NCBI GenBank assembly: GCA_903905655.1 | Contig: CAIVHG010000056.1 | Location: 1-64,000, forward strand | Length of the DNA stretch: 64,000 nucleotides | Origin: an uncultured beta proteobacterium | GTDB taxonomy: Bacteria > Pseudomonadota > Gammaproteobacteria > Burkholderiales > SG8-41 | Direction of reading: 5' to 3' | Part shown: piece after piece, positions 36,963-40,609 of the stretch | Layout: the number at the start of each line of letters is the position of its first letter | Numbering within the stretch: the first letter of the stretch is position 1 | The notes under the pieces: generated by a model | Databases searched by the model: none | The model's input: the letters and a program-made list of their open reading frames with translations, nothing else | What the model was told of the DNA's origin: nothing | Program-made: the position numbers and the translations under genes

Positions 36963-37637
36963 TCAACCGCCTACGTAGAGCGCAGGAAACTGGCGCTGCA
37001 GGTTCGCCACTTTCGGCAGATCGTGGATGACGATATACGGCTGGTTGGGATGATGCGCCGCATAGTCCTGGTGGTACGCCTCGGCCTCGTAGAACGCTGC
37101 GAGTTGCTTCGCCTCCGTGACGATGGGACGCCCGTACACGCGCGCCGCCTGTAGTTGAGCAATATACGCGTCGGCCACTCTCCGCTGCTCGTCATTGGCA
37201 AAAAATATCGCCGAGCGGTATTGCGTACCGATGTCCGGGCCCTGCCGGTTCAACTGCGTCGGGTCGTGCGCAACCGAAAAGAATACCTTCAGCAGTTGGC
37301 CGTAGCTGATGCGCGAGGGATCGTATGTAACGCGCACCGACTCCGCGTGCCCTGTGCTGCCCGAGCTCACGCGATCGTAATTTGCCGTCGCAGCCGCGCC
37401 GCCCGAGTATCCGGACACCACGTTGGTGACGCCTTTGACGTGCTCGAACACCGCTTCGATGCCCCAAAAGCAGCCGCCGGCGAACACCGCAGTCTGCGTG
37501 CCCGGCGCAGTTGCCCGCGGCGCATCGACCTTGGGATCGGGCAGCTGCACCGCGGCGTGCGACATCGTATACAGCGCCAACAACACAGCCGCGGCGCCGG
37601 CCATCACAGCGATTTTTCCTGAGATCAGACGATACAT
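36963..37637 (-). CDS. msrA: Periplasmic peptide-methionine (S)-S-oxide reductase
   Basis: Reduces methionine S-sulfoxide in proteins back to methionine. The 224-residue protein has an N-terminal signal/anchor (IAVMAGAAAVLLALYTMSHA) and then the MsrA domain with the catalytic GGCFWG, GYSGG, GHAESVRV and the AYHQDY motif. The export signal places it in the periplasm, unlike ordinary cytoplasmic MsrA. It lies 46 nt downstream of the Met-rich MXKDX gene on the same strand with a good AGGAGAA site, so both are probably transcribed from the ECF-type promoter near 38090-38112. Confidence 0.94.
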   Translation of the reverse strand: MYRLISGKIAVMAGAAAVLLALYTMSHAAVQLPDPKVDAPRATAPGTQTAVFAGGCFWGIEAVFEHVKGVTNVVSGYSGGAAATANYDRVSSGSTGHAESVRVTYDPSRISYGQLLKVFFSVAHDPTQLNRQGPDIGTQYRSAIFFANDEQRRVADAYIAQLQAARVYGRPIVTEAKQLAAFYEAEAYHQDYAAHHPNQPYIVIHDLPKVANLQRQFPALYVGG

Positions 37638-37683: not shown

Positions 37684-37974
37684 CTACTTCTTCATCGCAT
37701 CGTGCGCCATGTCCTTCGCCGACATGGCGTTCTTGGCCATGCCGTCCTTGGCCATCGCTTCTTTCTTCATGCCGTCCTTCGCCGTCGCGCCTTTGGCCAT
37801 CGCATCCTTTTTCATTCCATCTTTAACCATCGACCCCATCGCATCTTTCTTCATGGTGTCATTGGCCATGGCGCCTTTGGCCATTCCGTCCTTGCTCATG
37901 GCTTCCATCGCCAGCGCGCTGCCGCTGGCCACCATAACTCCGATTGCAAACGCGGCTGCAGTGATCTTGCTCAT
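37684..37974 (-). CDS. Pentapeptide MXKDX repeat protein, exported and Met-rich
   Basis: A 96-residue protein made of a signal peptide (ends SGSALA) and about 14 tandem five-residue repeats such as MKKDA, MAKDG and MVKDG. About 15 of the 74 mature residues are Met. It matches the MXKDX repeat family, whose role is unknown. An AAGGAG ribosome site precedes the ATG. Upstream on the minus strand is a perfect GTAACC-N16-CGAA motif, and MsrA follows downstream, so a role as a sacrificial oxidant trap or metal binder in the periplasm is plausible; this is inference. Confidence 0.9.
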   Translation of the reverse strand: MSKITAAAFAIGVMVASGSALAMEAMSKDGMAKGAMANDTMKKDAMGSMVKDGMKKDAMAKGATAKDGMKKEAMAKDGMAKNAMSAKDMAHDAMKK

Positions 37975-38086: not shown

Positions 38087-38112
38087 TTCGACCAAAGGTG
38101 GCATCCGGTTAC
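38087..38112 (-). promoter_or_regulatory. ECF (sigma-F-type) promoter of MXKDX-msrA unit
   Basis: On the minus strand GTAACC, exactly 16 nt, then CGAA. This equals the promoter consensus I recall for NrsF-associated ECF sigma factors (described for Caulobacter SigF). It points at the MXKDX gene, with a predicted leader of about 105 nt. Confidence 0.7.
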
Positions 38113-38135
38113 ACCCTCAGGCACAATTTGTGTCC

Positions 38136-38153
38136 GGCCGCTGAGTAGCGGCC
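38136..38153. other. Small hairpin between divergent ECF promoters
   Basis: A perfect 7-bp inverted repeat (GGCCGCT, loop GAGT, AGCGGCC) lies midway between the two divergent promoters. It may be an operator or insulate the two units; no direct evidence for either. Confidence 0.3.
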
Positions 38154-38196
38154 CCGGCGCCCTCTTTCAACCGCCGGAATTTCTTTTGCGGTGGCT

Positions 38197-38222
38197 GTAA
38201 CCGGATGCATCCATGCAGCGAA
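38197..38222 (+). promoter_or_regulatory. ECF (sigma-F-type) promoter of the sigma/NrsF operon
   Basis: GTAACC, exactly 16 nt, then CGAA on the plus strand. Its -35 region is part of a 13-bp inverted repeat (GCATCCGGTTACA at 38101-38113 and TGTAACCGGATGC at 38196-38208). The -10 element lies inside the annotated first codons of the sigma gene, which suggests autoregulation and questions the start codon. Confidence 0.7.
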
Positions 38223-38773
38223 CTACAATAGTAGATAGCGAAGAGCGCCTCAGGGCACTGCTGGTGCGCGGGCTCGCCGGAGACGCGCCCACCTATCGCG
38301 AGTTCCTGAAGGAGCTAAGCGCGCGGCTGCGGGCTTTCCTGAGGAAGCATCTCGCCCGCCTGCCGGACGAAGTCGAGGACTTGGTACAGGAATCCATGCT
38401 TGCCGTGCACAACCAGCGCCATACATACGATCCCAGCCAGCCGCTAACCGCGTGGGTCCATGCCATCGCCAGGTACAAGCTGGTCGACCTGCTGCGCCGG
38501 CGTGCGCGGCGCGATCTGCTGACCGATCCGCTCGACGATGAACTCGATTTGCTGTCGTCCGCGGACGCCGATGCCGCGGAAGCGCACTGCGATCTGGATA
38601 AGCTGCTCGCGCAGTTGCCCGACCGCCAGCGCCTGCCGATCGTCCACGTGAAGCTGGAGGGATTGTCGGTCGCTGAAGCCGCTCGCCTCACCGGCATGTC
38701 CGAGTCAGCAGTCAAGATCGGGGTGCACCGGGGCCTGAAGGCGCTTGCGGCAAAGATCCGGAGCGACGAATGA
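38213..38773 (+). CDS. ECF RNA polymerase sigma factor, NrsF-associated (SigF-like)
   Basis: A 186-residue sigma-70 family factor. The sigma2 region has [24 protein letters not shown] and [20 protein letters not shown]; the sigma4 region has [23 protein letters not shown] and [14 protein letters not shown]. The next gene, overlapping by four bases (ATGA), encodes the cognate NrsF-type anti-sigma. The ATG at 38213 lies upstream of the transcript start predicted from the promoter at 38197-38222, so translation may begin at the GTG at 38264, which has AGGG 8 nt upstream, or on a leaderless message from another codon. Likely responds to oxidative or heavy-metal stress, as known relatives do. Confidence 0.92.
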
Positions 38774-39411
38774 AGACCGAAGATCTGATCACGCTGCTCG
38801 CCGCGGGCGAAAGCAAGGTTGACCGGGGAATAGCCGCGCGCCGTTATGCGCTCGCACTCGGATGGGGAACCTGCGGCGCACTGCTGCTGATGGCAGCGCT
38901 GCTCGGCATGCGCGCCGACCTGGCAGACGCAGCGCACCTGACTATGTTCTGGGTAAAGCTTGCGTATGTCGCGGGTCTCGCGGTGGCAAGCCTGCTTGCG
39001 GCAGCGCGGCTGTCGCGCCCGGGCATGCCGCTCGCCTGGACCAAGGGCGCGCTCGCGGCGCCGGTGCTCGCGATGTGGCTGCTTGCACTGTTCGTGCTCT
39101 GGCGCGCAGATGCGTCCGCGCGCACGGCGCTGTTTTTTGGACAGACCTGGACCTCGTGCCCACTGCTCGTCGCCATGCTGTCGGTGCCGATTTTTGCGGC
39201 GGTGGTGTGGGCCATGCGCGGGCTCGCCCCGACCCGACTGCGTTTGGCGGGCGCCGCGGCGGGCCTGCTGTCCGGCGCCAGCGGCGCACTCGTCTACTGC
39301 CTGCATTGCCCTGAGATGGATGCGCCGTTCCTGGGATTCTGGTATCTGCTCGGCATACTGATTCCAACCGCGTTCGGAGCCTTGCTGGGGCCGCGTCTGC
39401 TGCGCTGGTAG
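38770..39411 (+). CDS. NrsF family anti-sigma factor (DUF1109)
   Basis: Six-helix inner-membrane protein of 213 residues that in known pairs holds the ECF sigma factor inactive until a signal is sensed. The N-terminal cytoplasmic stretch ([18 protein letters not shown]) should bind sigma. Two Cys positions characteristic of the family are visible, in [12 protein letters not shown] and [13 protein letters not shown], and could be the redox or metal sensor. The ATG overlaps the sigma stop. Family assignment is firm from the loop motifs and context; the signal is inferred. Confidence 0.9.
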
Positions 39412-39532: not shown

Positions 39533-40609
39533 ATGACGTTCCTCTACCCGCAACTGCTGTGGCTGCTGCTGGTCCTGCCCCTGCTCATCGCCGCCTACAT
39601 CCTGCTGCTGCGGCGCAGGAGCAAAGCCGCCGTCCGCTACGCAGATCTCAGCCTGGTGGCCGAAGCGATCGGCAGCCGCCGGCAGCTGCGGCGCCATATT
39701 CCGCCGCTGCTGTTGCTGCTTGCGCTCGCCGCGCTCGCGCTCGCCATCACCCGCCCCAGCGCGACCATCACGCTTCCTACCGAGCACCGCACCATCATCC
39801 TGGCGATGGATGTTTCGCGCAGCATGCGCGCCACCGACGTCCAGCCCAACCGCATCGTCGCATCGCAGACCGCTGCCAAGGGTTTCATCAAAGACCTGCC
39901 GTCGGACATACACGTGGGCATCGTGACGTTCGCCGTGAGCGCATCCGCCGTTCAACAGCCCACCCCTGACCACGACGCGCTGCTGCAGGCGATCGATGCT
40001 TTCAAGCTGCAGTTCGGAACCGCCACCGGCAGCGGGCTCATCGTCTCGCTGGCGATGATGTTTCCGGACGCCGGCATCGATGTGGAGGCGCTCACGCTGG
40101 GACCGCGCAGCAGGTTCGGTTGGCGCAGCCGGGACGAACCGGAAGCAAACGCCCCCATCAACCGTCCGCGCGCGCCGGCCAAAGCATTCACGCCGGTAGC
40201 GCCCGGCTCTTATCCGTACGGCGCAATCATCCTGCTTTCCGATGGCCGCCGGACCACCGGGCCGGATCCGATCGACGCTGCGCGCATGGCAGCGGACCGC
40301 GGCGTGCGCGTCTACACCGTGGGCTTCGGCACGAAGGACGGCACGGCCAACTTCGGAGAATTCGGCGGGTCATCCGCCTATTTTCGACTCGATGAAGAAG
40401 CGCTCAAGACCATCGCCGGCATCACGAAGGGCGAATATTTCTACGCCGGCACCGCCGAAGACCTGAAGAAGGTCTACGAAAAGGTGAATAACCGGCTGGC
40501 GATGGAAAAGAAACAGACCGAGATCACGGCGCTGCTCGCCGCATTGGCGGCCCTGCTGCTGATCGCCGCCATCGCGCTCTCGCTCGCGTGGTCGCATCGC
40601 TCCGTATAA
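39533..40609 (+). CDS. VWA domain membrane protein, BatA-like
   Basis: A 358-residue membrane protein with two N-terminal helices (about residues 5-25 and 57-78), a von Willebrand A domain (about residues 90-325) and a C-terminal helix (ITALLAALAALLLIAAIALSLAW). The MIDAS starts AMDVSRSMRATD, and the second metal region contains TGSGLIVSL. A long Pro/Arg-rich insertion lies between the two halves of the fold (about residues 185-225). It resembles BatA-type proteins, but no MoxR ATPase or other Bat gene is in the window, so it is an orphan here. The ATG has an AAGG site. Confidence 0.85.
   Translation: MTFLYPQLLWLLLVLPLLIAAYILLLRRRSKAAVRYADLSLVAEAIGSRRQLRRHIPPLLLLLALAALALAITRPSATITLPTEHRTIILAMDVSRSMRATDVQPNRIVASQTAAKGFIKDLPSDIHVGIVTFAVSASAVQQPTPDHDALLQAIDAFKLQFGTATGSGLIVSLAMMFPDAGIDVEALTLGPRSRFGWRSRDEPEANAPINRPRAPAKAFTPVAPGSYPYGAIILLSDGRRTTGPDPIDAARMAADRGVRVYTVGFGTKDGTANFGEFGGSSAYFRLDEEALKTIAGITKGEYFYAGTAEDLKKVYEKVNNRLAMEKKQTEITALLAALAALLLIAAIALSLAWSHRSV

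Follow-up and report, generated by a model that had tools for sequence, protein, structure and literature searches.

Divergent SigF-type promoters between a sigma factor–nrsF operon and an MXKDX–msrA gene pair: a probable envelope-stress switch with a variant payload

In the 64,000-nucleotide stretch of DNA analysed here (the window), an operon for an ECF sigma factor and its NrsF partner is transcribed away from genes for a methionine-rich MXKDX protein and a methionine sulfoxide reductase, MsrA. The question raised by this locus is whether paired promoters in the intervening stretch join the two gene sets into one circuit, and what that circuit would do. The features concerned are the following.

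36963-37637, minus strand: msrA, peptide methionine-(S)-sulfoxide reductase (PF01625, E=3.7e-61; TIGR00401 above cut-off)
37684-37974, minus strand: MXKDX repeat protein of 96 residues (TIGR02953, 84.4 bits against a cut-off of 41)
38087-38112, minus strand: divergent SigF-type promoter of MXKDX-msrA, GTAACCGGATGCCACCTTTGGTCGAA, with GTAACC at 38107-38112 and CGAA at 38087-38090
38098-38127, plus strand: candidate housekeeping (sigma70-like) promoter toward the sigma gene, with GTGGCA at 38098-38103, N18 and CACAAT at 38122-38127
38197-38222, plus strand: autoregulatory SigF-type promoter of sigma-nrsF, GTAACCGGATGCATCCATGCAGCGAA, with CGAA at 38219-38222
38213-38773, plus strand: ECF16/SigF-type sigma factor (PF04542, PF08281; NF009188 above cut-off)
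38770-39411, plus strand: nrsF, anti-sigma factor of a six-transmembrane family (PF06532, E=1.3e-69)

The gene identities given in an earlier note on this DNA are confirmed by profile matches (PF01625 for MsrA, TIGR02953 for MXKDX, PF04542/PF08281 for the sigma factor and PF06532 for NrsF). The sigma factor consists of a sigma2 (PF04542, residues 34-100) and a sigma4 domain (PF08281, 128-178) only. The nrsF gene overlaps its end (38770-38773), and the product covers the whole PF06532 profile (former DUF1109; 1-204 of 204), with a match to NF042994 that lies below the strict equivalog cut-off (147.7 against 300 bits). NrsF has cysteines at 35, 130, 177 and 180, of which the last three compare, by position only, with C129/C179 and C131/C181 (PMC3511200, PMC3420878). 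Judged by sequence, the pair is of the ECF16 (SigF-NrsF) kind. Directly downstream of nrsF, 39533-40609 encodes a VWA-domain BatA-like protein with an N-terminal aerotolerance-regulator domain. On the other side of the locus, the MXKDX protein contains 17 methionines and no cysteine, with a methionine about every five residues after an N-terminus that, by eye, resembles a signal peptide. The 224-residue MsrA has a hydrophobic N-terminus and is predicted to be of exported type; its single cysteine is the catalytic one in GCFWG.

The two promoter sites reported in the earlier note are correct in position and sequence to the base, and their motif is the published sigF consensus, GTAACC-N16-CGAA (PMC3511200), as that note had proposed. 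These are the only two matches in the 64-kb window on either strand, against 0.07 expected from shuffles (two or more matches in 0/100 shuffles). The computed probability per position is 7.5e-7, in line with the one in a million estimated before. Together the two -35 regions form a 13-bp inverted repeat, TGTAACCGGATGC.

To assess conservation, we compared orthologous sigma genes at 62-79% identity, from 80 species' loci on 80 contigs; the best-matching relatives are Betaproteobacteria of the Burkholderiales. A strict site is present at the sigma gene in 77/80 loci, at the divergent gene in 56/80 and on both sides in 54/80, while the promoter spacer sequences vary freely. Both sites are kept in 26 of 29 loci whose divergent operon is of the methionine-repair type and in 26 of 35 of the bufferin type. 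Conservation on both sides with freely differing spacers is good evidence, at the level of sequence comparison, that the promoters are functional, and they almost certainly switch on the sigma operon and MXKDX with MsrA. The proposal of an ECF16/SigF-type pair linking these genes thus holds, in motif and in conservation across species. A special meaning of the 13-bp inverted repeat pointed out in the earlier note is not supported, although the repeat itself is present: in 31 of the 54 both-site loci nothing beyond GTAACC is common to the two promoters, and the extension GTAACCGGATG recurs in 1/77 sigma promoters and 0/56 divergent promoters. As the extension is not conserved, the repeat should not be taken as an operator.

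The promoters are 84 nt apart in the window, against the usual 55-60 in repair-type loci. Between them, at 38136-38153, is a perfect 7-bp GC-rich inverted repeat (GGCCGCT-4 nt-AGCGGCC) with no T run after it, and the gap, about 27 nt above the usual repair-type gap, may include this repeat.

A search for further members of the regulon, suggested in the earlier note, covered the 2.55-Mb assembly of the organism (69.7% complete) and returned three more perfect matches, equal to the three found for a reversed control pattern. Long open frames enclose two of them; the third sits inside an opposite-strand ORF, with about 360 bp between it and the nearest long frame on its own strand. With one mismatch allowed, the motif gave 91 matches and the reversed control 120, so that no genome-wide SigF regulon is visible. 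Because the extra matches equal the control and do not resemble promoters, the visible regulon is the sigma/MXKDX locus alone.

Two further details emerged in the promoter region, the first being the position of the sigma start codon. ATG 38213, the sole ATG near the start of the sigma ORF, lies between the -35 and -10 elements of the gene's own promoter, and the next canonical start is GTG 38264. A reading frame could be assigned to 75 sigma promoters. In 40 of them positions 17-19 of the 26-mer read ATG or GTG, in frame with sigma every time, and 26 of these 40 loci have no other ATG, GTG or TTG ahead of an invariant Glu. A downstream start is present in 34 of the remaining 35 (Fisher p=5e-9, on rows that are not independent). 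The embedded ATG is in frame and none of the 56 divergent promoters has one at positions 17-19, and it therefore looks, from this comparison, like a start codon rather than part of the promoter; its Shine-Dalgarno motif is weak (a purine triplet, p=0.04). A transcript from the predicted SigF site cannot include ATG 38213. The closest precedent is Bradyrhizobium ecfF, where the mapped transcription start overlaps the annotated ATG (PMC3420878).

The second detail, noticed post hoc during inspection, is the sigma70-like element at 38098-38127, which overlaps the divergent SigF-type promoter (38087-38112). A -10-like hexamer toward sigma occurs in 41/50 loci, against 9.4 in shuffles (maximum 18 in 500 shuffles), most often at a fixed distance of 9 nt from the divergent GGTTAC and with a TGGC(G/A) element 18 nt upstream. 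A generic promoter scan with a strict consensus did not list the 38098-38127 element. It is a candidate housekeeping promoter that would supply sigma mRNA containing the ATG; it could instead be an activator or repressor site. Taken as a promoter, its overlap with the divergent SigF promoter means that resting polymerase may shut the target operon while supplying basal sigF-nrsF. On the same reading, since the SigF-dependent promoter lies inside the sigF start, stress mRNA would lack the ATG and yield a shorter sigma factor. Such a three-promoter switch, combining the housekeeping promoter, the SigF pair and an ATG-less stress mRNA with interchangeable payloads, is a tentative idea that we would not yet favour. 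Neither the embedded sigma ATG nor the third promoter is reported in the papers cited here on related systems.

The payload varies between lineages. Bufferin genes (BufA/DUF2282, BufB/DUF692, BufC/DUF2063, DoxX) make up the divergent operon in 35/80 loci, and methionine-sulfoxide repair genes do so in 29/80; 15/80 carry something else or nothing recognised, and 1/80 is too short. Because the labels were assigned from phmmer matches by simple cut-offs, a few of them may be wrong, for example those of L206 and L208, filed as other despite BufC and DoxX. Repair operons mostly run cytochrome b, MsrP, MXKDX, often followed by MsrA, with variants that include MsrB, a two-cysteine MsrA and a gene that we take to be DUF1223-like. 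The order MXKDX then MsrA is also seen in L147, L150, L157, L161, L205 and L224 (the repair-type locus of Propionivibrio soli), and among the 80 loci only the window has the pair without cytochrome b and MsrP. The window locus is not a bufferin operon, as judged by a DUF2282 precursor with MNIO (DUF692) and DUF2063, and PF05114 (bufferin MNIO/DUF692) is absent from the 2.55-Mb, 69.7%-complete assembly.

Mapping the bufferin/repair label onto the sigma tree takes 4 changes, against about 23 in shuffles, and at least 3 of the 4 are forced by well-supported branches. The window sigma falls among the repair-type rows, its exact place fixed by no starred branch. The first relatives compared had suggested that the locus was recently swapped from a bufferin one, an idea rejected on this placement. 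The window MsrA is closest to the MsrA that ends the SigF-linked CytB-MsrP-MXKDX-MsrA operon of L161, with 79% identity in the core (the MXKDX proteins match at 51%), and therefore the simplest reading of the sequences is that the window operon was reduced by loss of cytochrome b and MsrP. These two genes could instead have been gained in the other loci. Neither gene content nor tblastn with the L161 CytB and MsrP revealed an MsrP or cytochrome b at the window locus, and no remnants of them were detected by tblastn. In other families of the order, three distant sigma/NrsF loci at about 35% identity (L088, L089 and L090) also have an MXKDX gene adjoining a GTAACC-N16-CGAA site, a hint that a separate lineage shares this pairing.

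Other methionine sulfoxide reductases are encoded in the same genome. A cytochrome b and MsrP-like pair (L145 1465-2935, G000:C113) has neither an MXKDX gene nor a SigF site. Its MsrP shares 76-80% identity with those from CytB-MsrP-MXKDX loci of the same family that lack a nearby sigma gene, and at most 67% with SigF-linked ones; relocation of a SigF-linked CytB-MsrP to C113 is thus not supported. An exported-type MsrB elsewhere in the genome has no recognisable SigF site. Finally, MsrA matches on Cupriavidus/Caballeronia plasmids were rejected as the same operon, with no MXKDX, sigma gene or SigF site nearby.

The reading that we consider probable is an ECF16 (SigF-NrsF) envelope-stress switch, in which two divergent promoters control an exported MXKDX sink and MsrA repair. 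It is built on the motif, the gene families, the conservation of both promoters and the operon comparison, and from these we infer sigma dependence, sensing, export and a sink-and-repair cycle. NrsF would keep the sigma factor at the membrane until an oxidant or metal signal at its periplasmic cysteines frees it, whereupon sigma-RNA polymerase would fire both promoters. One would amplify sigma-nrsF, and the other would produce the exported Met-rich MXKDX protein and the exported single-cysteine MsrA. The MXKDX methionines would absorb oxidant, to which Cu(I) binding may add, and MsrA would reduce the resulting S-sulfoxides back; MsrA reduces the S-form only. As no other locus has MXKDX-MsrA without MsrP and cytochrome b, the Brucella and Azospira mechanism is carried over by analogy. 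Periplasmic methionine cycling by the window pair is plausible on that analogy, the published model being for the MsrP version (PMC4623255, PMC8315932). Bufferin operons occupy the slot in other lineages, which makes metal stress another good candidate for the inducing signal.

Three alternatives were weighed. The SigF switch may hold while MXKDX and MsrA are independent members of the regulon, MsrA serving general envelope repair with MXKDX not among its substrates. In many repair-type loci MXKDX does accompany MsrP while MsrA is absent, and others have MsrA-MsrB without MXKDX. A second exported-type MsrA with one catalytic cysteine, 76% identical to that of the window, is moreover encoded on another contig of the same genome (L078 7539-8225, G000:C39), where it is divergent from the gene for a cytoplasmic-type MsrA and has neither MXKDX nor a SigF site nearby. 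However, MXKDX and msrA are adjacent on the same strand, 46 nt apart, and follow in the same order in the six loci named above, which leaves this alternative doubtful.

The circuit could also be the same with MXKDX acting mainly as a metal-induced periplasmic buffer for copper or other metals, its evenly spaced methionines binding Cu(I), and MsrA repairing collateral methionine oxidation. This deserves weight because bufferins, which are copper-chelating RiPPs, fill the same divergent slot in the 35 loci and because Caulobacter SigF answers to copper: copper induced it under every condition tested, a sigF mutant is sensitive to copper, and the regulon takes in an MsrPQ-like pair as well as both bufferin clusters (PMC8224329). 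We nevertheless regard it as unlikely, given that the Brucella MXKDX operon is induced by HOCl and protects against it (PMC8315932) and that, in the loci compared, MXKDX genes adjoin methionine sulfoxide reductases and not bufferin genes. It is very improbable that only the sigma-nrsF promoter is SigF-dependent, with the minus-strand site a chance match or fossil and MXKDX-msrA driven by another promoter: 24/80 loci lack a strict divergent site, many of them without a recognised target operon there, and the 84-nt spacing is above the usual range, but a perfect site in the sigma/MXKDX intergenic stretch has a chance of about 0.0004 and 26/29 repair-type loci keep both sites.

The circuit of the sink-and-repair reading is already known from relatives in Brucella, Azospira and Caulobacter; in the window it carries a variant payload. 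Brucella melitensis bcrXQP/bcrS-abcS, with both promoters mapped and autoregulation, sigma dependence and HOCl induction established, likewise has an ECF16 sigma factor (BcrS) and an NrsF-family anti-sigma factor (AbcS) divergent from a Met-rich MXKDX operon, with TGTAAC/CGAA promoters on both sides; its operon contains MsrQ/MsrP, whereas the window has a single-cysteine MsrA and no MsrPQ (PMC8315932). Azospira suillum sigF-nrsF with mrpX-yedYZ (Melnyk et al. 2015, as summarised in PMC4623255 and PMC8315932) provides the model in which, under SigF/NrsF control, a Met-rich peptide takes up hypochlorite and a reductase regenerates it, which the window cycle would resemble; the reductase there is of the MsrP type, and the window locus has none. 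Exported msrA/msrB genes have been noted in related perchlorate islands (PMC4623255).

Caulobacter crescentus shares the GTAACC-N16-CGAA promoters, a consensus derived from primer extension and RACE (PMC3511200), including one at sigF itself; its NrsF has two important cysteines and its SigF inducers are chromate, cadmium and copper, but the sigF-adjacent operon is of the bufferin type (DUF2282/DUF692/DUF2063/DoxX) and the MsrPQ-like pair lies elsewhere (PMC3511200, PMC8224329). That sigma/NrsF genes occur together with bufferin clusters is itself known (PMC12452194). Bradyrhizobium japonicum EcfF-OsrA is also ECF16, with conserved OsrA cysteines that matter and peptide methionine sulfoxide reductases in the regulon; in contrast to the window, the reductase genes are at distant loci and the promoter spacing differs slightly, and the accessible part of the paper describes no MXKDX gene beside the sigma gene (PMC3420878). 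In Neisseria and Haemophilus an ECF sigma factor controls an exported MsrA-type reductase (MsrAB) and an HOCl response; the system belongs to another ECF group and has a small cytoplasmic anti-sigma factor and no MXKDX protein (PMC7907618).

Set against these systems, the interpretation in the earlier note is mostly right and largely known already; it had missed the sigma ATG upstream of the -10, the third conserved promoter-like element, and the MsrP/cytochrome b and bufferin operons in the slot of relatives. What is new here is the stripped-down target set, MXKDX-MsrA, and the two promoter-region details. A promoter call made from raw sequence was confirmed by comparison. Automatic annotation of such sigma genes, and constructs, may begin at a codon missing from the stress-induced transcript.

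The single-cysteine exported-type MsrA raises a concrete question, namely its periplasmic reductant. Two SigF-type loci (L220 2825-4958 and L196 2884-4847) have a divergent operon that opens with MsrB, a two-cysteine MsrA and a thioredoxin-like (DUF1223-like) protein, the last a possible periplasmic reductant for MsrA. If the three-promoter reading is true, one switch would serve either a bufferin or a repair payload, represented in the window by a minimal MXKDX-MsrA. For the Betaproteobacteria, the comparison shows SigF-NrsF switches with exchangeable protective payloads, either copper-binding bufferins or methionine repair.
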